Below, piece by piece: positions 1 to 22,397 of a DNA stretch of 26,106 nucleotides. Every line of letters begins with the position of its first letter. Position 1 is the first letter of the stretch. The notes beneath the pieces were generated by a model. It was not told the origin of the DNA. It worked only from the letters and a program-made list of their open reading frames with translations, and searched no databases. The translations under genes were made by a program, and so were the position numbers. Location of the stretch: positions 1-26,106 of the IMG/VR virus record IMGVR_UViG_3300043015_000282; one strand, written 5' to 3'. Source of the DNA: a virus.

Positions 1-621
1 CTCAACAGTATTGTATGTTGCTGTTCCTGTGATGCTTAAATCTGTAAATTCATTTGAGAATGTTAAGCCACCACTGCCATCAGTTTGTAAAAACTGTCCA
101 GCAGTACCATCTGCTGTGGGCATATTGTATGCATCATTAAGTCTAATAGTAGAACCTTGTACTTTAAATACTTCACCACTATTACTAGCATTGTAAACTT
201 TGAAAATTGGATCTGAACTGGAACCGTTATCTCTTACTCTTAATTGGGTAGCAGTTCCATTACTGTGGGCTACATCTAAATATGCACCACTAAATTTTAA
301 TGTTGGGTTTGTTCCTAATCTTAAACTACCATTTACAAATAGTCTATCATTAGAACTAGTTGAGCCGACGGAGACTGTATCGTTACTGCTGTCTACAAAT
401 AATGTACCAGAGTCAACGTTCAAGTCTGCTAAAGTACTTCCTACACTTACCCAAGCATTGTTATATACTTGTAAAGTCGAATTAGAACTATCTATATAGA
501 TATCACCGTTAGAGATACCGCTATCAGGTAATGTGCCAGTTGATATTTTCGAACCTTCAGAGGTTTTTCCAATCTGAAATTCAGATTGAGTGGTACCTTT
601 AAAATTTCCAAAAATCGCCAT
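1..621 (-). CDS. Fibre-like structural protein, C-terminus beyond window
   Basis: The frame is open from an ATG at 621 to the window edge (207 codons), so the C-terminus is missing. The product begins MAIFGNFKGTTQSEFQIGK and is rich in Ser, Thr, Gly, Asn and Asp, with short beta-type repeats and almost no Cys. It contains GTAGQFLQTDGSGGLTF (about residues 167-183), a phrase that recurs in phage tail-fibre and virion-appendage proteins. That composition supports an exposed beta-structured virion protein, but the exact role (tail fibre, whisker or head decoration) cannot be told. A late promoter at 737-744 would give a leader of about 110 nt that contains a long hairpin. Only a weak Shine-Dalgarno sequence is visible before the ATG. 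Confidence 0.7.
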   Translation of the reverse strand, partial: MAIFGNFKGTTQSEFQIGKTSEGSKISTGTLPDSGISNGDIYIDSSNSTLQVYNNAWVSVGSTLADLNVDSGTLFVDSSNDTVSVGSTSSNDRLFVNGSLRLGTNPTLKFSGAYLDVAHSNGTATQLRVRDNGSSSDPIFKVYNASNSGEVFKVQGSTIRLNDAYNMPTADGTAGQFLQTDGSGGLTFSNEFTDLSITGTATYNTVE

Positions 622-684
622 ACTTTATTATCCAGGTCAGTTCTAGGAGTTGTAATAAGGACACCATGCCTTACGAACCCTAGT

Positions 685-719
685 CTGTGTCCTCATGATA
701 TTCATGAGTGACGACACAG
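685..719 (-). promoter_or_regulatory. Long imperfect hairpin in the 5' leader
   Basis: Two nested perfect 7-bp inverted repeats are present. The outer arms are 685-691 and 713-719 (CTGTGTC/GACACAG). The inner arms are 692-698 and 702-708 (CTCATGA/TCATGAG) with a 3-nt loop, and there is a 4-nt bulge at 709-712. It lies between the late promoter at 737-744 and the ATG at 621, so it should form near the 5' end of the mRNA. No U-tract follows on either strand, so it does not look like an intrinsic terminator. A role in mRNA stability or translation control is inference. Confidence 0.5.
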
Positions 720-736
720 TCTTCTCCGTCTACATA

Positions 737-747: not shown

Positions 748-1824
748 TTATACTGTTTTAAGTGGTTTACTTAGTTCTTCCCAACTGGTTTCAAAATCTG
801 AGTCACCATCTGCATAACCCATTACACCCAACTTGTCATATTCAGGTATAAGTTCGTCCGTTAGTAGTCCTATTCTTTTTAGGTTGGGCATTATTCGACT
901 GAATAATACGTCTTGAAATTGTGTTTGAAATATAAATTCTTTTTGATATGCTTCTGTTTGTTCTAAATCCATACCATATTTTTCCCAAACATCATATGCT
1001 CTTAATCTGTTTCTGCTTACAGTACAGGCCTCTAAGGCAAATTGTGCTCTGTCCTGGCGTTCTTCTTCTGTGAGTGTTTTTACATATTCTTCTAAATAGT
1101 TTACACCAAAGGTAACATGCCTTGCTTCATCTCTGATAATATATCCTACCATTTCTTTGTATACAGGATCGTTACTGGCATCTTTACTAGCCTGAAAGGC
1201 CGCAAGTGCTAGTCCTTCTATAACAATTTGCATACCAATAAACTTTAAATCCCATCTTGGATCAGTTAATATTTTGTCTAGTAATCCTTTTAGTGCTGTG
1301 CCTATAGGCCATGTTCTTTTAAGTCTTGTTTGCAGGTATTTGTTAAATGCTTCTACATGTCTTGCTTCATCGAATGTCTGTGAAGCCGCATATAGTTTGG
1401 CATTAAATGTAGGAGCACAACTGGCCAACTGACTTGCTACTAATAAAGCACCTTGTTCTCCGTGTAAGAATTGGCTGATACTCCATGCATTTAAGTCTCT
1501 GATAAATTCTAGTTTCTTTTCTTTATCCCATTCTGCATATACAGGATGTTTGCTCCATTGATTGTTTTCAAACTCAAATGCTTCTGTATCGATATCTGGA
1601 AACTCTGGTGTCCAGTCAACATCCACTTCTGCATTCCAGTTTAACTGTTTGCCTAATTCGTATAGTTTTTTAACACGATTGTCCTGTACTGTATAATCCC
1701 AATTATAAGTACCTGTTAGTGGAGTTTGAAATATTTCTACAATATCTGTGGGTTCAAGTCCGGCTGGATATTCGTCCTTATGAAGAACAACTTCCACAGG
1801 AGTTTGACCTTTAATAATTTTCAT
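748..1824 (-). CDS. Ferritin-like di-iron protein (possible oxidase/oxygenase)
   Basis: This is a 358-residue protein with a full ferritin-superfamily carboxylate di-iron ligand set: Glu123 (HGEQGALL), Glu153/His156 (DEARHVEAF), Glu203 (IEGLALAAF) and Glu233/His236 (DEARHVTFG). The E-ExxH-E-ExxH pattern on four helices is shared by ribonucleotide reductase R2, R2-like oxidases, AurF-type N-oxygenases and aldehyde-deformylating oxygenase. The wording of the motifs best matches the bacterial family annotated only as ferritin-like domain proteins, not NrdB, because typical R2 context is absent. The substrate is unknown. It sits between two fibre-type genes under its own late promoter (1830-1837), so it would be made with the virion proteins. 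It has no signal peptide. No Shine-Dalgarno sequence precedes the ATG, and the mRNA is predicted to be leaderless. It is probably an auxiliary metabolic gene or, less likely, a virion-associated enzyme. Confidence 0.8.
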   Translation of the reverse strand: MKIIKGQTPVEVVLHKDEYPAGLEPTDIVEIFQTPLTGTYNWDYTVQDNRVKKLYELGKQLNWNAEVDVDWTPEFPDIDTEAFEFENNQWSKHPVYAEWDKEKKLEFIRDLNAWSISQFLHGEQGALLVASQLASCAPTFNAKLYAASQTFDEARHVEAFNKYLQTRLKRTWPIGTALKGLLDKILTDPRWDLKFIGMQIVIEGLALAAFQASKDASNDPVYKEMVGYIIRDEARHVTFGVNYLEEYVKTLTEEERQDRAQFALEACTVSRNRLRAYDVWEKYGMDLEQTEAYQKEFIFQTQFQDVLFSRIMPNLKRIGLLTDELIPEYDKLGVMGYADGDSDFETSWEELSKPLKTV

Positions 1825-1829
1825 AATAT

Positions 1830-1837
1830 TATTTATC
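1830..1837 (-). promoter_or_regulatory. Predicted late promoter at a leaderless start
   Basis: Exact GATAAATA on the minus strand, followed by five bases and then the ATG at 1824. With the T4 late spacing (octamer ends at -6), +1 is the A of the start codon. Confidence 0.65.
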
Positions 1838-1862
1838 GATGTTTACGATGCAAACATCAGTT

Positions 1863-5258: not shown

Positions 5259-5266
5259 TATTTATC
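5259..5266 (-). promoter_or_regulatory. Predicted late promoter (GATAAATA)
   Basis: Exact GATAAATA on the minus strand, 31 bp before the fibre gene start at 5228. The predicted transcript start is near 5253, giving a leader of about 25 nt that contains AAAGGA. Confidence 0.7.
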
Positions 5267-5335: not shown

Positions 5336-6478
5336 TTACTGGAAGGACACGTTTTGCAACGTAATGTGATCAACGTAGTCCGCCGCGTTACCCAATGAAC
5401 TTGCTGTGTTAGTAAGTTCTTTGTAACCATATCTTGTCATAAATGACACTACTGGTTCAAATGTAGCAGGATCCATAACTGGACCTGTGCTCATTAATGG
5501 GATATAAGGACAGTAGAATGCTGGAGCATCAGTTTCTGATGAACCTTTGTATCCTACTAATACGTCTGTACCGTCAGCCGCGTAGTTATCAGCAAATACT
5601 CTGATTGTTCCGTTTAGTGTTCCAACAAACTTAGTGTTTGTAGGTGCTTCAAAAGAACCTTCAGTTGTTCTAGCAAATGTTGATGTTGATGCACTTTGTA
5701 AAACAGTCAATGCTTCTGGAGAAACAACGATGTAGTTACCAGCACCACGTCTTGTTCTAGCCGCGATTCTGTTAGCACTTCTGTTGATCTCAATAGCCAA
5801 TGCCGCATGTCTATCACCGACATACACACTCTGACCACTTAAAGAACCAAAGTCTAAGTTATTTGTGCCTGTTCCTGCTAGTGATCTTAGTGAACCGATA
5901 ATTTCTTGGTCGATTTCAACTACAATCTCTTGTGCAAGAGCCTGCATAATTTCTGCTTCAACGTCTACACCATGCATTGCTTCTGCATCTTGCGCCGCTT
6001 CAAATGTCCATCTAGCACTTAAACGTCTTGTCTTTGCTTCGACAGTTTCTTTTAAGATTTGGATTGACATTTTTTTACCTGCTTGTCCTTCAGCAGATGC
6101 TGTTGCATCTGGAGAACCTGCATAGGTACCTGCAAGTTTAAAAGGACTTAAAGCCTCGTCACCTGCTGTTGCTCCACCACCAGTTTCCGCATAACGGACT
6201 CTTAGTGTGTGGATTTGTCCTACTGGACCAGTCATAGGCTGAACGCCTACTAGTTCGTTAGCAATAACAGAAGGCATAACCCTTCTAATTAATGGTAACA
6301 TAACTTTGTTTAATGTTGCTACTGAACCTGCGCCTGTGGCACCTGCTGTTGCGGCCTCTGACAAATGTCTCTTTGTATTTTCGAGGACCACATCTAATGA
6401 AGATTTTCTGTTTCCAGATAAGCCTTCAAGCAAAGCGTCTTTAGTTGCGGACCAGTTGCTTTCAAATAATTCTGCCAT
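5336..6478 (-). CDS. 23: Major capsid protein gp23
   Basis: A 380-residue protein with the T4 gp23 hallmarks: ANELVGVQPMTGPVGQIH near residue 77, and YIPLMSTGPVMDPATFEPVV with SFMTRYGYKEL near the C-terminus. It forms the hexamers of the HK97-fold head. It is shorter than T4 gp23 (521 residues), mainly because insertion domains are reduced. The N-terminal region contains HLSE|AATAGA: Leu-x-Glu followed by Ala at residues 39-42 fits the cleavage specificity of the gp21 prohead protease, predicting a mature protein that starts at Ala42. It is the last gene of the head operon, with AGGAG upstream of the ATG and only 12 bp after the gp22 stop, followed by a strong terminator. This is the most secure identification in the window. 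Confidence 0.97.
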   Translation of the reverse strand: MAELFESNWSATKDALLEGLSGNRKSSLDVVLENTKRHLSEAATAGATGAGSVATLNKVMLPLIRRVMPSVIANELVGVQPMTGPVGQIHTLRVRYAETGGGATAGDEALSPFKLAGTYAGSPDATASAEGQAGKKMSIQILKETVEAKTRRLSARWTFEAAQDAEAMHGVDVEAEIMQALAQEIVVEIDQEIIGSLRSLAGTGTNNLDFGSLSGQSVYVGDRHAALAIEINRSANRIAARTRRGAGNYIVVSPEALTVLQSASTSTFARTTEGSFEAPTNTKFVGTLNGTIRVFADNYAADGTDVLVGYKGSSETDAPAFYCPYIPLMSTGPVMDPATFEPVVSFMTRYGYKELTNTASSLGNAADYVDHITLQNVSFQ

Positions 6479-8263: not shown

Positions 8264-9082
8264 TTATGCCTTTTTAGGTTCAACCTTAATGTTGTCTGTA
8301 GGTGTGTTATCTGCTGGTTTGTTGTTACCCATGTTGCCGTCGCTACCATCTTTTGCTTTAACAGGTGTACCTGCTCCGCTAACTGTAGTTTTCTTAGGTG
8401 CTTTTGTTAAAGGACTTTCGCCTTCGCCTTCACCTGCGCCGCCTTTTGGATCTGCAACTTTATCTTGTAATTTGGTTGCTTCTTCAACAACGTCTTCATC
8501 TCGAATTTCTTCATCTAGATCATATTCAACTGATTCTAAATCAAGTTCATCTTCCATGTCGTCTGCATCCATTTCTGCTTCTTCGCCGTCTTCCATGTCT
8601 GCTTCGTCGTCGTTTGCTAATAATTTTTCAAATTCTGCTTTAAGATCTTCCAACTCATCTTCGATGTTGTCAACTTTATCTTCTAAGTCTTCTTCACCTT
8701 CAGGTGCTTCTTCATCATCTTCTTCGCCGAATGTGTCTGAAGCAATTTCTTCTTCATCAGCAAGGATATCGTCTTCAAAATCGTTTGTTTGATCAATTAC
8801 TTCATCAACTTCAAACTCTTCTTCAACTGCTTCTTCTTCTGACTCTTCTGCTTCTTCAACAGCCTCTTCTTCAGATTCCTCTGATTCTTCAACTGCTTCG
8901 TCTTCTGACTCTTCTGCTTCTTCAATTTCTTCTTCTTCAGAAACGTCTTCGTCTAAAACTTTTTCATATTCTGCTCTTGCTTTTGCAACAACATACTCAT
9001 GAAGCATTTCTTCCGCTTTTTCGTTTTCTTCAGCAAGGAGAAGTTCAAGAATTTCTTCTAATTTACTTCTTGATTCTGACAT
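8264..9082 (-). CDS. Acidic prohead core protein, gp67/gp68-like
   Basis: A 272-residue, extremely Glu/Asp-rich protein. The N-terminal helix (about residues 6-44, SKLEEILELLLAEENEKAEE) resembles the short helical head of T4 gp67/gp68. It is followed by an acidic repeat tract (residues 54-89), further acidic coil (about 95-200) and a Lys/Gly/Pro-rich tail. T4 places genes 67 and 68 between portal gene 20 and protease gene 21, and this gene occupies that place apart from two inserted ORFs. It is much longer than T4 gp67 (80 residues). Its likely role is an internal core component that gp21 cleaves, possibly leaving acidic internal peptides. A very strong Shine-Dalgarno (AAAGGAGG) precedes the ATG. 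Sequence alone cannot separate gp67-like from gp68-like. Confidence 0.72.
   Translation of the reverse strand: MSESRSKLEEILELLLAEENEKAEEMLHEYVVAKARAEYEKVLDEDVSEEEEIEEAEESEDEAVEESEESEEEAVEEAEESEEEAVEEEFEVDEVIDQTNDFEDDILADEEEIASDTFGEEDDEEAPEGEEDLEDKVDNIEDELEDLKAEFEKLLANDDEADMEDGEEAEMDADDMEDELDLESVEYDLDEEIRDEDVVEEATKLQDKVADPKGGAGEGEGESPLTKAPKKTTVSGAGTPVKAKDGSDGNMGNNKPADNTPTDNIKVEPKKA
8816..8923 (-). repeat. Acidic coding repeat (AEESEEEAVEE-type)
   Basis: Three imperfect copies of a unit of about 11-13 codons reading EESEEEAVEEAE or variants occur in tandem in the acidic core protein (residues 54-89). The DNA repeats too, with 'gactcttctgcttcttc' found twice, which suggests recent slippage or duplication. 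Confidence 0.7.
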
Positions 9083-9219: not shown

Positions 9220-10257
9220 TTATGATTGTGCAAGTTTATTTATCATATTATAGTTAAATTCTAAAACTTCATTTATTTGCGAAGAATTTAATAAATCATG
9301 TAACTCTTGTATTGTATACTTAGAACAAATGTTTTTTGTTTGCTCTAAAACAGCATCTACACGTTGCTCAGGGTCAAATATATTATCATAGGATTCATCA
9401 AATAATATATTTTCAAAAGTCTTAAATCCTATTTTCTTTAATTGGTCTAATGCTTTATAATCGCCTATAAGTAAAAAAGGACGTTTGTAAAATATACTTC
9501 TCCACAGTTTTTCAGTATAAAATATGTCTTTCCACCAAGAAAAAGGCACATAAAAGCCAGCACTTGTTTCTGTTATAACATCAAAATAAGAACCATAAAA
9601 AACATCATAAAAGTCTTGATGTTGAGGTGCATGACACATATGATACCCAGATTGATCTCTTTTTGGCTGAATCTCTATTGGTAACTGTTCTGCTATATAA
9701 CCCAGTGATTTATCATAAAACAAGTTTATAGCATCTCTATCAAACATAAAGGTACATTTACTTTTATCTATAAGATTATTTTCAAATAAAAATTCACATG
9801 CTTGAATACGTTGAGGTCTAGAAACACCATTTAGACAACTAAAATAATAAGGCCTGATGCTATCGCTATAATTATCAGATATATCTGTATGTGTATCTAC
9901 GGTTTGTTTTAACCAAAACTCTTTAGTTGCAACTGTCTTAAATTTAGGTCTATCGTATAAATCACAATATCTTTCGTAATTTTCGCTTATAAGATAATTG
10001 CCTGATAAAAATGTAACTCTATTAGGGTCTATATTGCAATAGTCAAGAATATCTAATATAGCAGTAAAAATATCTTTTGTGCTATTAACTCGATCTAAAT
10101 AATGATTACGTTCTGTAGAATAGTCTAATACAAAATCTTTTGTACTATGATGTAAATTTAATAAAGTATTTTTTAAACGTGTAGGAAGTTCATTCGACGA
10201 TTGTAAAAGTATTTCTATGTGTGTACTTTTTTCTGTATGTAATAACTGTGTGATCAC
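9220..10257 (-). CDS. Unknown protein, weakly glycosyltransferase-like
   Basis: A 345-residue, aromatic-rich soluble protein. I do not recognise it with confidence. The C-terminal segment (about residues 245-310) reads FYTEKLWRSIFYKRPFLLIG and then LKKIGFKTFENILFDESYDN. This resembles a phrase in uncharacterised marine-virus proteins often listed beside glycosyltransferases (SEKTxKPI-x-PFLLIG, LKxxGFKTF, SYD), so sugar transfer is a weak inference. An FSCLNGVSRPQR segment sits near residue 165. The start codon is GTG with no clear Shine-Dalgarno sequence, 9 bp after the preceding small ORF, so translation may be coupled. It interrupts the canonical portal-core-protease order and looks like an inserted accessory gene. 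A late promoter octamer overlaps its 3' end and serves the next gene. Confidence 0.6.
   Translation of the reverse strand: MITQLLHTEKSTHIEILLQSSNELPTRLKNTLLNLHHSTKDFVLDYSTERNHYLDRVNSTKDIFTAILDILDYCNIDPNRVTFLSGNYLISENYERYCDLYDRPKFKTVATKEFWLKQTVDTHTDISDNYSDSIRPYYFSCLNGVSRPQRIQACEFLFENNLIDKSKCTFMFDRDAINLFYDKSLGYIAEQLPIEIQPKRDQSGYHMCHAPQHQDFYDVFYGSYFDVITETSAGFYVPFSWWKDIFYTEKLWRSIFYKRPFLLIGDYKALDQLKKIGFKTFENILFDESYDNIFDPEQRVDAVLEQTKNICSKYTIQELHDLLNSSQINEVLEFNYNMINKLAQS
9237..9244 (-). promoter_or_regulatory. Predicted late promoter inside an upstream ORF's end
   Basis: Exact GATAAATA on the minus strand within the last codons of the 345-residue ORF. It would start transcription near 9231, giving a leader of about 150 nt for the core protein, protease, scaffold and capsid genes. 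It lets the abundant core and capsid genes be expressed independently of the portal. Confidence 0.6.
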
Positions 10258-10471: not shown

Positions 10472-12178
10472 TTATACCTCTGGTGGTACGTCACCACCTA
10501 ATCCAGGTTCTCCAGTAGTATTTATACCTAAATCGCCTTCGGGACTAGGAGGTACTTGATCGAAAGGAATACTTGCTCCAGGATCTACCATTGCATTAGG
10601 ATCTGGTCTTATACCAATATTTCTTAAATCTGCGTCTGTGCTGTCATCTGTGTATTTTTGATAATCGTTTTCTTTACGCCATAGTTCTTCGTTTTGTTTC
10701 ATTTCTAATTCTGTTAGACCTAGATACTTTTGTAATTTAAACTGATTGCTTAAATATGGTATTGCGGCAACTTGGTTAAAGAGTGTGGCACGTTCAGCAT
10801 CTAATGATAACTCTCTGTAAGAACTAAAGTTCATTGGTGGATTAAATGTTATTTCAAATCCACTACTGTCTATATCAATACCTCTGTATTTTATAAACAT
10901 TTTAAATTCGTGGTCTAGATCTTCCTGTATTTGTTTCTGTAGTCGTTCTATGTATCTAGCAAATCTATATTCTTGTATATATGCAATACCTACTTTACCG
11001 TCATTATACATTGCTGACCCGTCTTCTGGTCCTGAAGGAAGATAACTGCTAGGTATACGCAAACCTCTAAGTAGTTTATTATTAAAATATCTAAGGTCGT
11101 CTATTTGTCCTAAGTTTTCACCGCCTGGTAAAGTATCAACTTTACTACCTCTACCATCTGCCGTTTGAGCAAAGAAGTAATCTTCTAACATACTCATTGG
11201 GTTATAGGCCGCATCTGCTACACCGTTGCCGTCTTTGTTTTTATTTGGTACACGTTTTTGTTGTACTTCATATTTAACTTGCTCTAAATACTGTCTTGCT
11301 TTGTGAGGTGGCATATTACCAACATCAATAAAGAACACACGTCTTTCAGGTGCTCTATGTACTCTGTATATAATAATAGAATCTTCTAATAGTTCTTTTT
11401 GCTTGAACACTTTAAATATAGGTTCAAGAATACTAACACCAAATGGCCATGCATGATCCATACCTTCTGTTAAACTAACATGTACAATGTGTTTAGCATC
11501 TACAGGTGATCCTTGGTCTACACCGTCCATAGCACCTGTCAAATAATTACCAGTTGATGTTCCTACATTACCGCCAGCCATCATGCCGCCACCTGCACCA
11601 TATGGTCTCGAATGCAAAGGTGCAACATCAGTTGCTACTAACTGTTCAAAGTTTGCTTGTAAATTTTTTATAAAATAAGTTTCAATTTTCTTACCTTCAC
11701 TTTCGTTTACAATGACTTTTTCTATGTTTGCTGGATCGACCCAGTAAAGTTTGTATGTTTCTGGATCTCTAATAAAGAATTGATCGCCATATTTTATTGT
11801 GCTACGAAATATTCTAAATGCTCTTTTATGCATTTCATTAAGTCTGCACCATTGTTCTAATGATTTTGTAAGGATTTTATTTTCAGTATCGCTTGGTTTT
11901 CCTTTGTAACTTAATTCAAATGGAAATTTTGAAGTTGCTTCTGCTTGTGAGCCGAATTCTGCAATAGTATCTAATGCGGCATTGACTTCTAGATCATTAT
12001 CCATCTGATCATACTGCATATATCTCATGAGCCTATTAGGACTTCCAGCATAAACTTCAGGTAACCAACTAGCATACCTACTTGTTGCGGCTCCTGGGCC
12101 TGAAGTATCTTTACTACCAGTTACGTTTAACGGTAAACCGCTGTTATCGACTGATGTAAAATATTTTCTCCAACTCAT
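10472..12178 (-). CDS. 20: Portal vertex protein gp20
   Basis: A 568-residue protein of the T4 gp20 family. Characteristic segments include SWLPEVYAGSPNRLMRYMQYD and DLEVNAALDTIAEF near the N-terminus, VHRAPERRVFFIDVGNMP in the middle, and LRIPSSYLPSGPEDGSAMYN about two thirds through. Twelve copies form the ring at the head's unique vertex, which nucleates prohead assembly, passes DNA and joins the neck. It is slightly longer than T4 gp20 (524 residues). AAAGGA precedes the ATG. It heads the head operon and has both a late-type octamer and a sigma-70-like promoter overlapping upstream. Confidence 0.96.
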   Translation of the reverse strand: MSWRKYFTSVDNSGLPLNVTGSKDTSGPGAATSRYASWLPEVYAGSPNRLMRYMQYDQMDNDLEVNAALDTIAEFGSQAEATSKFPFELSYKGKPSDTENKILTKSLEQWCRLNEMHKRAFRIFRSTIKYGDQFFIRDPETYKLYWVDPANIEKVIVNESEGKKIETYFIKNLQANFEQLVATDVAPLHSRPYGAGGGMMAGGNVGTSTGNYLTGAMDGVDQGSPVDAKHIVHVSLTEGMDHAWPFGVSILEPIFKVFKQKELLEDSIIIYRVHRAPERRVFFIDVGNMPPHKARQYLEQVKYEVQQKRVPNKNKDGNGVADAAYNPMSMLEDYFFAQTADGRGSKVDTLPGGENLGQIDDLRYFNNKLLRGLRIPSSYLPSGPEDGSAMYNDGKVGIAYIQEYRFARYIERLQKQIQEDLDHEFKMFIKYRGIDIDSSGFEITFNPPMNFSSYRELSLDAERATLFNQVAAIPYLSNQFKLQKYLGLTELEMKQNEELWRKENDYQKYTDDSTDADLRNIGIRPDPNAMVDPGASIPFDQVPPSPEGDLGINTTGEPGLGGDVPPEV

Positions 12179-12195: not shown

Positions 12196-12224
12196 ATAAT
12201 ACACTATTTATCGTATATTGTCAA
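12196..12224 (-). promoter_or_regulatory. Sigma-70-like promoter before portal
   Basis: On the minus strand, TTGACA (12219-12224), a 17-bp spacer and TATTAT (12196-12201). It matches 11 of 12 consensus bases with ideal spacing. The late octamer GATAAATA lies inside the spacer. Confidence 0.5.
12205..12212 (-). promoter_or_regulatory. Predicted late promoter of the head operon
   Basis: Exact GATAAATA on the minus strand; predicted start near 12199, leaving a leader of about 20 nt with AAAGGA before the gp20 ATG at 12178. Confidence 0.7.
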
Positions 12225-12247: not shown

Positions 12248-14674
12248 TTATGAATTTTGTTCTATTGCTTTTGTGGATTTTTTGGTTTGTTCATTAATCT
12301 TAATTAATCTATTTAAACTCATAAGTAACGACGACATGCTGTCGTCACTAAATGTTGCATCTGGTTGGATATAACCTTCTGAATTTGGGTTACGATTGTC
12401 CATTGCTACATGCCTACTCTTAATAGTGTCTTGATTTTCTAAGAATTGTATTAAGGCTTGTCTGTATTTTTCCTGTGTTTCTTTGTCTTTTTGGAATGCT
12501 GTCTTTACTGCTGACATCATTGTCTCTTCTGTAAAGTCAACTATTCCGCCAGTTTGGTTAGCCATTGCTAACGTTTCATTTCCAAATTTAAATGCTTCGT
12601 CTTTATATCTGTATTCATCTGAAGATTTGCCTATTACACCGAAAGACAAGTTATTTACAGCAGAACTAATTCCTCTGCCGGTTTTTTGCAATCCACCTTC
12701 TCCAGTTTGGGCACCTGCTACACCTTCAGAAACAGCCATATATGCACCTATAGGTGCAAGTATTTTGGTAAAAAGGCCTTTGCCTACTACTTTACCCAAG
12801 CCTGGTTTTTTAGGTGATTTGGGTTTATCTGGGCCATCTGAACTAATTGGATTACCATCTGCTCCTAGAATTGAACCTGCGGCAGTACTCACAGTGGCTC
12901 CGGTGGCTACTGTGGTGGCTACTTTTGTAGAAGTCGGCACCTTTCCTTTAGTAGGTACTAATGGTATTCCTCTGGTTAATGCTAATGCTGTAATTAAGGC
13001 TACCATGGCACCTATTACTTTTGGGTGGGTAAATAGCAGTTCCATTGCATATACTAAACCCTCTACGAGAGCCTCCATTGATTTTTCTAAAAGTGTCGAT
13101 ATACCTACCTTTACCATCTCACCAAGTTCTTTAAATGTCATACCTGACTCGGTTAACGCAGTCATTAATCCATCTAGATAGTCAATAAATTCAGCAGTTT
13201 TTTGTCCTACTCTTCTACCAAAATCCATTAAGCCGGTTTCAGCATCACCTAATGCTGTATTCACAAATCTAAAGAAAGAATGTGTAAGGTTTTCCATACT
13301 GGTAGTAACATCTAGTAACCCGTCTCCAAATCCAGACATAAATGTGTTAAGAACTTGATCAATTATAGTACTAAACCTTTTAACAATTACATTAAAAGCA
13401 TTAAATCCTTTTTGTACAGGTATAGGATCTAACCCCATTTTTTCTAATCTTTTTGCAGACTGTTCAAATTGAACAACTGCTTTTGCTAATTCTTTAGCAG
13501 TCTCATCGCCTGCCCTTGCAAAAGCAAATATTCTATCACGTTCAACATTTGAAAGATTGCCTAATTGTTGAGCAAACTGTTCAGATACATCTGCACCATC
13601 TAATACACCGCTCTCAAAATCTCTGATTGCACCGTTCATTGTTGATGCTAACGATGGTAATACTGTGACAAAATTCATTGCCGCATCAGAGAATCCTAAT
13701 GCGCCAAATGTTGCGGCTTCTAAAGTAGCCGCCCCAAGTTCGCCACCTACTTCGCCACCTAATGCTCTCATGGTACCTAAAAAGTCTGTTGCGCCTTTTA
13801 ATAAATTTTCTCTTGCCATAGTAGGCACTCTTAACAATGCTGAAGAAAATGCACCGTTGTCGTCTAATACATTTCTTACAAAACTTTGTATTGCTTCAAC
13901 ACTAGTACCTAATGCTTGGGCATAAATTACTTGTTTTCTTGTGGTGTCTACAATGTTTGCAGTAAGTAGAGATCGCTGTTTTGCATCTACAGTTCCTAAA
14001 TTAAGATATTCTGTTCTTGCAGTTAATTCTTTAGTATACATATTAACAGAATCATCTAATGTTAAACCTAAATTAACACCATAACTTGTTAATTTTAAAA
14101 ATTCTGCTGTTGCATTAGCAATGCCTCCAGTCAACAATCTCGTAACTTGAGAATTGTCCATCATAATATCTGTTGCATCTTCTGTACTAATACCTAAGTT
14201 ATTAAAATTAATCAGAGATTGCATTACTGCTCGGCCTTGACTTTCGTTAAATGCAATACCGGATTTTGTTAGATCGTTAAATACATTTCCTAAATTTATT
14301 GCCCTACCGGCTGTTACAGTTAAACCTGTTAAAAATATTCCACCTAATGTTAAACCAACTTTTCCAATAGTATCAAAAACACTACCAGTAAATTCACCAA
14401 TTGCTACTTCATAACTTTTTCTTATTTTTTCATTTGACCGATCCATCTCTTTAGTGAAATCGTCCATTGACTTTTTAAATGTTTTAGAATTGCTGGATGT
14501 TTCGTTAGAAAGGTTATTGATTGATTTTTCCAGAGTTTTTGTATTAAAACTTCCATCTAATTTTTCCAAAGCCTTAAGCATTTCTTCTTGTGTGCTTTGT
14601 TTTGCATAGGCAGGCAATTCAACAGACTGCGGATTGCCGTCTATATCAATTGTTATTTTTGTCCAGTCTGCCAT
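12248..14674 (-). CDS. Probable tail tape-measure protein
   Basis: An 808-residue, largely helical protein. About residues 25-95 form a charged coiled coil. A hydrophobic segment follows (GLTLGGIFLTGLTVTAG, about residues 105-125), then a long helical Ala/Leu-rich body. Further hydrophobic stretches lie near residue 560 (VIGAMVALITALAL) and in the Ala/Thr-rich VATTVATGATVSTAAGS region, followed by a Lys/Pro/Gly linker and a short coiled tail. This layout (coiled coil with interspersed hydrophobic helices) is typical of tape-measure proteins, which set tail length and are ejected at infection. T4 gp29 has this role, but I see no clear residue-level match. The neighbouring divergent gp26 gene with its apparent frameshift supports the call, because tail chaperones usually lie beside the tape measure. 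Another large virion protein cannot be excluded. Confidence 0.68.
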   Translation of the reverse strand: MADWTKITIDIDGNPQSVELPAYAKQSTQEEMLKALEKLDGSFNTKTLEKSINNLSNETSSNSKTFKKSMDDFTKEMDRSNEKIRKSYEVAIGEFTGSVFDTIGKVGLTLGGIFLTGLTVTAGRAINLGNVFNDLTKSGIAFNESQGRAVMQSLINFNNLGISTEDATDIMMDNSQVTRLLTGGIANATAEFLKLTSYGVNLGLTLDDSVNMYTKELTARTEYLNLGTVDAKQRSLLTANIVDTTRKQVIYAQALGTSVEAIQSFVRNVLDDNGAFSSALLRVPTMARENLLKGATDFLGTMRALGGEVGGELGAATLEAATFGALGFSDAAMNFVTVLPSLASTMNGAIRDFESGVLDGADVSEQFAQQLGNLSNVERDRIFAFARAGDETAKELAKAVVQFEQSAKRLEKMGLDPIPVQKGFNAFNVIVKRFSTIIDQVLNTFMSGFGDGLLDVTTSMENLTHSFFRFVNTALGDAETGLMDFGRRVGQKTAEFIDYLDGLMTALTESGMTFKELGEMVKVGISTLLEKSMEALVEGLVYAMELLFTHPKVIGAMVALITALALTRGIPLVPTKGKVPTSTKVATTVATGATVSTAAGSILGADGNPISSDGPDKPKSPKKPGLGKVVGKGLFTKILAPIGAYMAVSEGVAGAQTGEGGLQKTGRGISSAVNNLSFGVIGKSSDEYRYKDEAFKFGNETLAMANQTGGIVDFTEETMMSAVKTAFQKDKETQEKYRQALIQFLENQDTIKSRHVAMDNRNPNSEGYIQPDATFSDDSMSSLLMSLNRLIKINEQTKKSTKAIEQNS

Positions 14675-14704: not shown

Positions 14705-14712
14705 GATAAATA
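14705..14712 (+). promoter_or_regulatory. Predicted late promoter of gp26
   Basis: Exact GATAAATA on the plus strand. Predicted start near 14718, with a leader of about 49 nt containing AGGAG before the ATG at 14767. It forms one arm of a perfect 10-bp inverted repeat with the opposing late promoter. Confidence 0.7.
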
Positions 14713-14732: not shown

Positions 14733-14740
14733 TATTTATC
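14733..14740 (-). promoter_or_regulatory. Predicted late promoter of the tape-measure gene
   Basis: Exact GATAAATA on the minus strand. Predicted start near 14727, with a leader of about 53 nt before the ATG at 14674. The transcript runs back across the gp26 promoter. Confidence 0.7.
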
Positions 14741-20473: not shown

Positions 20474-21346
20474 TTAATTGTTGTTTATGTCTGTAGTTTC
20501 GTTTTCTATTGCCGACTCTCTCAAAGCCTTCATCTCATTTTCATGCTGAATCTGTCTACCATAACTTGGTAAGTGGCCTGAGTCGATTAAAATATCATCT
20601 CTGATAGTTTGATTTCTTTTTTCTAAATTTAATACTCTAGTAAAACTATTGTTTACAGCGGCAGTATAGTATGCAAATGGATTATCTGATTTTGCTTCGT
20701 TAAACTGCAATCCTATTTGAGATAACTGTACTAATGCTTGTCCACGCATTTCGTCTACATAAGTGTACCCTCTCCAGTTTGCTCTGTGACTGTACCTTTC
20801 AACTAGTTTTAAAAACATTGTGCCTAATTTGTTAGTAATACTACCAACAGTAGGATTAAACTGCCCGTTACTTAAACTGCCTTCCCAATGACTTCTAGCA
20901 ACTTCTACTATTTCATCACCTTGATAAGCATAATGTTTAAATGCTGGAAAGTTTACTTTTGCTTTAGTTTCTGCTTCATTTTTAGGATTTTTCTTTCTAC
21001 CTGGCTCATCTGGAATGTGTTCCATAGTCATTACTCTAAAAACAATTTTTTCTTTATCAATGCTCTTAGGATCTACAGCAAACTCTTTTTGTTTAGGTTT
21101 ATTTTTATAATCCTTAGGATCATGTTTGGCCATTGCGGCCTGATATGCGTCATATTGTAGTCTAGCAACATGATTTTCTCTAGCAGTTTTAAGACTATTT
21201 CTATTGATCTTTTTAACGTCTTCTAGAATTATATCAAATATGCTGTATTTTTCATCTGCTAGATAGCAGTATGACATTTTGCTTTTGTGTATTTCTTTTA
21301 ATATATCTCTGTTATTAAGATAATTAACTTTTTTAGGCTGTGCCAT
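20474..21346 (-). CDS. 55: Late-transcription sigma factor gp55
   Basis: A 290-residue protein. The N-terminal VNYLNNRDILKEI (residues 8-20) corresponds to YNYVNNKELLQAI of T4 gp55. The region about 188-255 (RANWRGYTYVDEMRGQALVQ, then FAYYTAAVNNSFTRVLNLEK) aligns with the T4 sigma region-2-like core that recognises the late -10 octamer. T4 gp55 has 185 residues; this protein carries about 100 extra residues between the N-terminal motif and the core, rich in Lys and Pro (KDYKNKPKQKEF). It directs RNA polymerase to late promoters, here presumably the GATAAATA sites. A strong GAGGAG lies before the ATG and a near-consensus sigma-70 promoter upstream. It is first in the gp55-gp47-gp46 operon. Confidence 0.93.
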   Translation of the reverse strand: MAQPKKVNYLNNRDILKEIHKSKMSYCYLADEKYSIFDIILEDVKKINRNSLKTARENHVARLQYDAYQAAMAKHDPKDYKNKPKQKEFAVDPKSIDKEKIVFRVMTMEHIPDEPGRKKNPKNEAETKAKVNFPAFKHYAYQGDEIVEVARSHWEGSLSNGQFNPTVGSITNKLGTMFLKLVERYSHRANWRGYTYVDEMRGQALVQLSQIGLQFNEAKSDNPFAYYTAAVNNSFTRVLNLEKRNQTIRDDILIDSGHLPSYGRQIQHENEMKALRESAIENETTDINNN

Positions 21347-21385: not shown

Positions 21386-21413
21386 ATTATACACAGTCTT
21401 TTGTGTATGTCAA
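21386..21413 (-). promoter_or_regulatory. Consensus sigma-70 promoter of the gp55 operon
   Basis: On the minus strand, TTGACA (21408-21413), a 16-bp spacer and TATAAT (21386-21391), which are perfect hexamers, about 40 bp before the gp55 ATG. No GATAAATA is present on this strand here. This fits early transcription by unmodified host polymerase. Confidence 0.8.
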
Positions 21414-21460
21414 GTAGTATTTAGTTAAACTGGATAATAATAACATCTGTTAATGGATTA

Positions 21461-21468
21461 GATAAATA
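21461..21468 (+). promoter_or_regulatory. Predicted late promoter at a leaderless start
   Basis: Exact GATAAATA on the plus strand, then five bases and the ATG at 21474. T4 late geometry puts +1 on the A of the ATG. No Shine-Dalgarno sequence precedes the start. Confidence 0.7.
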
Positions 21469-21473
21469 GTTGT

Positions 21474-22397
21474 ATGGCATTTGGAAATTTAATATCAGGA
21501 TATCTTGGAAACAAGGCTAAACAAAAACTTGGCTCAATAGATAATCCAGTAATAAGGCGAGCAGTAGGTGGCCTTTTAGGAAATCTAGGTGGCGATATCT
21601 TTGGAGGTTTAGCAAGTCCTCCTAGAAACGCAGATTCAAACCTGTTATTTGGTGCAAGAAATTTAAGCGAATTACAATTAAGAAATAGATTAGCACAACA
21701 AAGTAATCAAGCCGCGGCGTTAGATGTTTCAAATGAAGGCAGTTTAGCAGAAAATAAAGACTGGCGTGCTAGGTTGCGACCTAAATCTGCAGGAGAATTA
21801 CTTACTTACAGAGCAACTGCCTCCAATGCTGAAGAATCAGCATTATTGGCGCCTATTATCGAATCAGGTGGCTTAGTTTTTCAATATACTCCTAGGTTTT
21901 TTATTAGTGGTACTGCAAACTATCATCAGCATGAAGGCCAAGGAATGAATTATCCTATCATGTCGTATATAAATTCGACACCGCCTAATTTTCCTGTATC
22001 ATCAGATTTTACTGCAAACAATATAGATGAAGCAAGATATGTTTTAGCAGTATTAACATTTTTAAAAGTTATGACAAAATCTGAATACGGTGATACAGCA
22101 GTAGGTAGAGGTGTAGCAGGTACTCCGCCACCGGTTCTATTATTTGAATATCTTGGAGACCATGGTTTTAATAAAGTACCAGTTGTATTAAGAAGTTATA
22201 CTGTTGAATATTCCGATACAGTAGACTATGTACCAGTAGTCACAAATATAAAGGGAAAACCTACAACCACATATGTGCCTACGTCAACATCAGTGATGAT
22301 TGATTTACAGCCAACTTACACACCTCAAAAACAACGCAAAAGATTTGATCTCAAAGGTATTACTACTGGTGAAAGTTATAAGGATGGGTTTGTATAA
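21474..22397 (+). CDS. 48: Baseplate/tail-tube cap protein, gp48-like
   Basis: A 307-residue protein. The N-terminus is Gly/Leu-rich (GNLISGYLGNKAKQKLGS, then AVGGLLGNLGGDIFGGL). The body has tail-tube-like phrases: GLVFQYTPRFFISGTANYHQ (about 132-151), NNIDEARYVLAVLTFLKVMTK (about 180-200) and PPPVLLFEYLGDHGFNKVPV (about 217-236). These match what I know of marine T4-like gp48, which caps the baseplate and starts tail-tube polymerisation; the related gp54 is the main alternative. It is followed directly by gp53, whose ATG overlaps its stop. It has a late promoter immediately before the ATG and no Shine-Dalgarno, so a leaderless mRNA is predicted. Confidence 0.78.
   Translation: MAFGNLISGYLGNKAKQKLGSIDNPVIRRAVGGLLGNLGGDIFGGLASPPRNADSNLLFGARNLSELQLRNRLAQQSNQAAALDVSNEGSLAENKDWRARLRPKSAGELLTYRATASNAEESALLAPIIESGGLVFQYTPRFFISGTANYHQHEGQGMNYPIMSYINSTPPNFPVSSDFTANNIDEARYVLAVLTFLKVMTKSEYGDTAVGRGVAGTPPPVLLFEYLGDHGFNKVPVVLRSYTVEYSDTVDYVPVVTNIKGKPTTTYVPTSTSVMIDLQPTYTPQKQRKRFDLKGITTGESYKDGFV

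Follow-up and report, generated by a model that had tools for sequence, protein, structure and literature searches.

The window, by which we mean the whole 26,106-nt stretch of DNA analyzed here (IMG/VR record IMGVR_UViG_3300043015_000282), is a fragment of a marine T4-like phage genome. Its genes include those for a gp55-like late sigma factor (20474 to 21346, minus strand; phrog_12791, E = 3e-92), a portal, a major head protein, an SbcC/SbcD-like nuclease pair, and baseplate proteins. The nearest isolates by head and portal proteins are those of the PA5oct group (69.5% and about 54%, respectively). Two further genes are the subject of this analysis. The first (748 to 1824, minus strand) encodes a 358-aa AurF-like di-iron protein (PF11583) that has 132 relatives in IMG/VR, weak matches in the PDB, and no match among INPHARED phages. 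Distant homologs of this protein (31 to 39% identity) are also present, as open frames of ~400 aa, in 45 of the 197 genomes in the order of a Pelagibacteraceae genome. The second (21474 to 22397, plus strand) encodes a 307-aa virion structural protein (phrog_12050) and is divergent from the gp55 gene.

Both genes begin in the same way. The octamer GATAAATA, exactly five bases, and an ATG follow one another at 1837 to 1822 (minus strand) and again at 21461 to 21476 (plus strand), as the original prediction had reported for both places. At the di-iron gene, the octamer (1837 to 1830) is followed by the spacer ATATT and the ATG at 1824 to 1822. At the virion structural gene, the octamer (21461 to 21468) is followed by GTTGT and the ATG at 21474 to 21476. 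GATAAATA is the T4-type late octamer TATAAATA with one deviation, at the first base, and the window phage encodes the gp55 homolog expected with T4-type late promoters (20474 to 21346). Passages of a T4 late review (PMC2988020) number the first base of the octamer as −13 and place the transcription start about one helical turn downstream. The last base of the octamer is therefore −6, in agreement with the geometry first proposed, and +1 lies five bases on, which makes the A of the ATG the predicted +1 at both 1824 and 21474. No Shine-Dalgarno (SD) sequence is present in the predicted transcript at either start; its absence at 1824 had been claimed from the outset. In dinucleotide shuffles of the window, the octamer had a mean count of 2.5 versus eight in the real sequence (1 of 400 shuffles reached eight), and the octamer with five bases and an ATG had a mean count of 0.035 versus two (0 of 400 reached two), so that two copies are far above shuffle expectation.

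Seven of the eight GATAAATA sites in the window lie 0 to 149 nt before a called start and point in the correct direction; the gene that the eighth one faces is truncated at the edge of the window. The six sites other than the two described above are predicted to give leaders of 21 to 149 nt. Five are on the minus strand: 5259 to 5266 (25 nt; a tail-fiber gene with AAAGGA), 12205 to 12212 (21 nt; the portal gene, with AAAGGA), 14733 to 14740 (53 nt; gene 12248 to 14674), 9237 to 9244 (149 nt; gene 8264 to 9082), and 737 to 744 (a structured leader of about 110 nt; the gene leaves the window at 621). The sixth, at 14705 to 14712, is on the plus strand (49 nt; a baseplate hub gene with CAGGAG). 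The predicted leader at 621 to 731 (minus strand; promoter at 744) folds better than its shuffles (−33.1 kcal/mol, z = −2.2). An Rfam search with this leader gave no match, and Rfam and tRNA searches over the whole window found nothing. The earlier statement that most other genes here have clear AGGAG-type sites holds only roughly: 9 or 10 of the 17 other upstream regions have one, and several starts do not, including those at 12248, 16351, 16776, 19456, and 22701. Upstream of the gp55 gene, there is a perfect 12/12 sigma-70–like promoter (TTGACA-16-TATAAT; 21386 to 21413, minus strand), which is adjoined by a late-like ACTAAATA at 21425. The sole exact TATAAATA of the window (10519 to 10526, minus strand) lies within the 3′ end of the portal gene, is followed by CTACT and GGAG, and is possibly an internal late promoter.

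The five-base spacing is not confined to this fragment. We examined the distance from ATAAATA to the first ATG gene start in ten sequences (the window, contigs G001 to G004, G007, and G012 to G014, and the cultured phage HTVC008M). Note that G002, G007, G008, G009, G012, Vibrio 2.275, and Phosso were only partly analyzed. Across the ten sequences, 68 starts lay at 5 nt, 3 at 4 nt, and 5 at 6 nt; there were none at 11 to 15 nt, and a broad second group spanned 16 to 60 nt. Comparing this spacing across genomes was the check originally proposed, and the sharp peak lends strong support to a promoter–start codon fusion. Within G001 (250 kb), 26 starts were found at 5 nt and none at 0 to 4 or 6 nt, with none for the reversed pattern. 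G008 and G009 had 19 starts at 4 nt and none at 5. We also scanned all 7-mers at offsets 0 to 49 upstream of candidate starts, with probabilities that assume independent genes, which genes are not. The best word in the window plus eight related contigs was ATAAATA at offset 5 (55 of 165 occurrences), above the SD word TAGGAGA. ATAAATA at offset 4 was best in G008/G009 and TAAATAG at offset 4, which is the same register, in HTVC008M; the best word in T4 was GGAGAAT. Among the matches listed in viral contigs, an ATG opened 60 codons in 68 of 81 at a spacing (k) of 5 and in 22 of 80 at k = 6.

The arrangement recurs over gene families and phage groups. Starts at 4 to 5 nt numbered 0, 0, 1, and 2 in T4, Syn9, P-SSM2, and PA5oct, where leadered octamers numbered 18, 11, 22, and 24. 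The ratio of such starts to leadered ones was 90 to 80 in the marine set versus 3 to 75 in these controls (Fisher P = 1e-15). The 90 leaderless candidates are not independent, as they form 59 blastp clusters and both G012/G013 and G008/G009 are close pairs. Ten candidates scanned from G001 include the terminase large subunit, a head-tail adaptor, a gp25-like wedge protein, and a CHASE2 guanylate cyclase, and several of the ten had no named match. Partial stretches of Vibrio 2.275 and Phosso contained no such starts. Counting against a general rule, the PA5oct group, which contains the closest isolates by capsid protein, is without the pattern. In G001 (loci L085 to L097), TATAAT also occurs exactly 6 nt before an ATG five times, the highest count among offsets 0 to 40, which hints that some early promoters may be leaderless too.

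We consider it about 85% probable that gp55-type late promoters have here been fused to start codons, making leaderless late mRNAs that are read from a 5′-terminal AUG. The DNA evidence for the fusion is strong, while the site where the mRNA begins, the time when it is made, and the way in which ribosomes bind it are predictions made from it. The gp55-like late sigma factor (20474 to 21346) and host RNA polymerase would bind GATAAATA, and RNA would start five bases past the octamer, at the A of the ATG. Such an mRNA would begin 5′-AUG, without a leader or an SD, and ribosomes would bind the 5′-terminal AUG directly. This could act as a stage gate, modeled on T4 gene e, whereby only the late transcripts of such genes would be translated.

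The leadered promoters carry an initiator at the same place. Of the 71 leadered promoters in the k = 5 group, 44 have a YR (pyrimidine-purine) step, the mark of a probable start, at bases 5 and 6 past the octamer, more than at any other position compared. For the k = 4 group, the step is at bases 4 and 5 in 8 of 9, a small number that includes related promoters. A comparison of TA steps gave a Fisher P of 0.002. In both groups, the leaderless ATG starts at the purine position of the YR step. Because the step is found at this same distance in promoters with leaders, the ATG is tied to the predicted +1. The core distance that places +1 on the start codon is accompanied by a predicted transcript without an SD. 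AUG is also preferred, since the codon that opens the frame at k = 5 was ATG in 60 cases, GTG in 1, and TTG in 1. An SD word precedes the start in 52 of the 82 leadered genes. An SD-like word was scored for 14 of the 90 leaderless candidates, and these words must lie upstream of the octamer because none fits the octamer or the scanned spacer positions. Furthermore, the first 40 nt of leaderless genes are less folded than those of other genes at equal GC (−2.14 versus −2.88 kcal/mol, P = 0.002).

The most durable alternative, which we nevertheless judge to be unlikely, is a real late promoter whose initiation is imprecise or lies at least one base upstream, giving 1- to 5-nt leaders and start codon–proximal translation. 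Sixteen gene starts do lie 6 to 8 nt from the octamer, equivalent to predicted leaders of 1 to 3 nt, and the "about one helical turn" of the T4 late review (PMC2988020) also speaks for this reading. However, the spacing peak is one base wide, and the YR step of the leadered promoters falls on that very base.

Orthologs of the virion structural gene add a comparison within a single gene family. We examined 67 of 79 homologous loci, after dropping 12 whose N-terminus did not align. The octamer is present in all 67, at 16 to 28 nt from the ATG in 62 and at 5 nt in 5, and the leaders carry an SD-type sequence in the examples printed. Four of the five homologs with 5-nt spacing are the window's own lineage (99 to 100% identical); the fifth, L362, is separate. 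The first residues of L362 are nearly identical to those of its nearest compared homolog (L351; 58%), whose leader is 16 nt longer. Because the orthologs keep the octamer, mostly with an SD-bearing leader, the predicted leaderless state at this gene is derived, and at least twice.

The same orthologs bear on a much less probable reading, that the AT-rich octamer is not a promoter but a translation-initiation element (an A/U-rich enhancer) on longer transcripts. Many phage and host genes are without an SD, which would suit such an element: a crude count found an SD for 41 of 299 Pelagibacteraceae ORFs versus 77 of 124 in T4. Readthrough is also possible at the di-iron gene, as the gene upstream is on the same strand. 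However, an octamer 16 to 28 nt upstream of the ATG, with an SD in the leader, is what 62 of the 67 homologs of the virion structural gene have. This gene is divergent from gp55 and so cannot acquire a leader by readthrough from that neighbor, no sigma-70–like site was found on its strand, and the octamer is that of the T4 late consensus.

The promoter–start codon fusion appears to have been gained repeatedly at the di-iron gene. Octamer-to-ATG spacing over 80 loci with relatives of this gene spikes at five bases. The stop of the upstream gene overlaps the di-iron ATG (TAATG) in L007 and L010. The gap from stop to ATG is 38 to 39 bases in the window, L001 to L003, and L005, where it contains a hairpin and GATAAATA; it is 17 bases in L006/L008 and 12 in L011, each with the octamer five bases from the ATG. 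The hairpin has 10 pairs (1837 to 1859, minus strand; −9.6 kcal/mol, z = −2.9); it follows the stop of the upstream gene and reaches the octamer, with which its last base overlaps. Its sequence is kept in L001, L002, L003, and L005, and a possible role is to protect or terminate the mRNA of the tail-fiber gene upstream. We found no terminator-like site between that gene and the di-iron octamer. On a tree of 79 rows (78 of the 80 loci plus the window; L029 and L078 were omitted because their upstream sequence is missing), the leaderless state requires six changes, at least four of them forced by well-supported branches. Counting against this, the octamer is missing from the 4 to 6 nt before the ATG in 50 of the 79 rows, two relatives have it at 6 nt, and one clade has it at 4 nt. 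That clade belongs to G012 and G013, genomes that otherwise mostly use 5, so +1 would have to shift there by one base. Together with the spacing peak, the initiator step, and the leadered orthologs of the virion structural gene, the gains on this tree support the original prediction of a promoter–start codon fusion.

The layout is common to the cultured phages HTVC008M and Mosig and, more weakly, Melnitz. All nine sites with the octamer, five bases, and an ATG in HTVC008M coincide with annotated CDS starts, of genes that include the tape measure, a baseplate tail tube cap, a baseplate wedge subunit, a DNA end protector, and CsgF. The nine genes are those at 6280, 7562, 16007, 18916, 19456, 31132, 49760, 75559, and 142360 of HTVC008M. 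Mosig has eight sites, and the five checked are all annotated starts, including those of the tail tube and DNA end protector genes. Melnitz has four, of which two of the three checked are annotated starts. The third counts against the pattern: the annotated gene, which has AAAAGGG, opens 17 nt downstream in a different frame. At L627 143 to 178 of Melnitz, an out-of-frame AUG at the predicted +1 precedes an SD-led gene start, with a possible 8-codon upstream ORF. S-SKS1 has one site and DLP_6 none. This one Melnitz case, and a GTG at codon 10 of the di-iron ORF (its one alternative start, with AAAGGT upstream), would fit a true SD-led start further downstream and a fortuitous ATG at +1, which is the least credible explanation and very improbable, given that the virion structural ORF has no in-frame ATG, GTG, or TTG in its first 60 codons, that an in-frame SD-led alternative within 90 nt exists for only 1 of the 90 leaderless candidates (versus 7 of the 82 leadered genes), and that di-iron relatives with different upstream contexts have the same Met and similar first residues. 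The gene at 21474 accordingly lacks a downstream start with a ribosome-binding site, and one is unlikely at the di-iron gene (1824).

Two possible causes were tried and rejected. For host-driven use of leaderless mRNAs, we searched 400 kb of one Pelagibacteraceae genome, in which TATAAT 6, 7, and 8 nt before an ATG gave 2, 3, and 3 starts, with no clear peak; pattern counts over the whole host genome exceeded the reversed control only slightly. A tblastn search detected a phage-encoded bS21 in HTVC008M, G004, and PA5oct and in none of the other genomes searched. As PA5oct has bS21 but is without the leaderless pattern, there is no correlation.

Leaderless transcripts are made from lambda cI and by the Thermus phage P23-45. 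These are also phage mRNAs that begin at AUG, but they involve other promoters, other polymerase factors, and phage families that are not T4-like. T4 late promoters (TATAAATA), at which transcription depends on gp55/gp33/gp45 and on replication, have the same octamer, the same position, and an encoded gp55 homolog. Unlike the marine set, however, T4 has no called gene with the octamer 4 to 5 nt before the ATG, and leadered starts are the rule. At T4 gene e, according to passages of one study (PMC3014915), late promoter position likewise decides which transcripts are translatable, although T4 late transcripts retain a ribosome-binding site, unlike those predicted here. Bacterial leaderless genes, as in Mycobacterium and Deinococcus, share the fixed core-to-ATG distance, the lack of an SD, and the preference for AUG, and leaderless translation by 70S binding to a 5′ AUG is covered in a review of such genes (PMC9031893). 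In the present case, a sigma factor of the phage would instead read one of its late promoters, and leaderless translation would therefore be tied to the late stage.

Reports on related phages touch on parts of this picture. The AR9 paper states that phage transcripts are often leaderless (PMC5312081). The Melnitz paper describes a search for TATAAAT and a count of 15 late promoters (PMC9004378). A pelagimyophage survey reports no success in locating middle and late promoters by the approach used for cyanophages (PMC7029224). We found no description of leaderless late transcripts in T4-like phages in the portions of the open-access literature covered, with subscription journals mostly outside that scope. 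The promoter–start codon fusion is a real and recurrent architecture, and it is apparently undescribed in the open-access papers covered.

Late promoters and start codons can be annotated together from DNA alone in such phages, and the fusion offers a reason for the failure with late promoters noted in the pelagimyophage survey (PMC7029224). HTVC008M or Mosig with the Pelagibacter strain HTCC1062 provides a cultured pair for stage-specific leaderless translation. More tentatively, there may be a marine T4-like class in which about half of late promoters make leaderless mRNAs, a trait that would have arisen more than once among phages of streamlined, low-SD hosts, although we regard this broader proposal as rather doubtful. 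Late and early translation would thereby be separated, since SD-less readthrough transcripts would be poorly translated, and the phages may adjust the host ribosome toward 5′-AUG mRNAs late in infection. Regardless, the predicted architecture would bring late transcription of the T4 type together with leaderless translation, in phages that are abundant in the sea.
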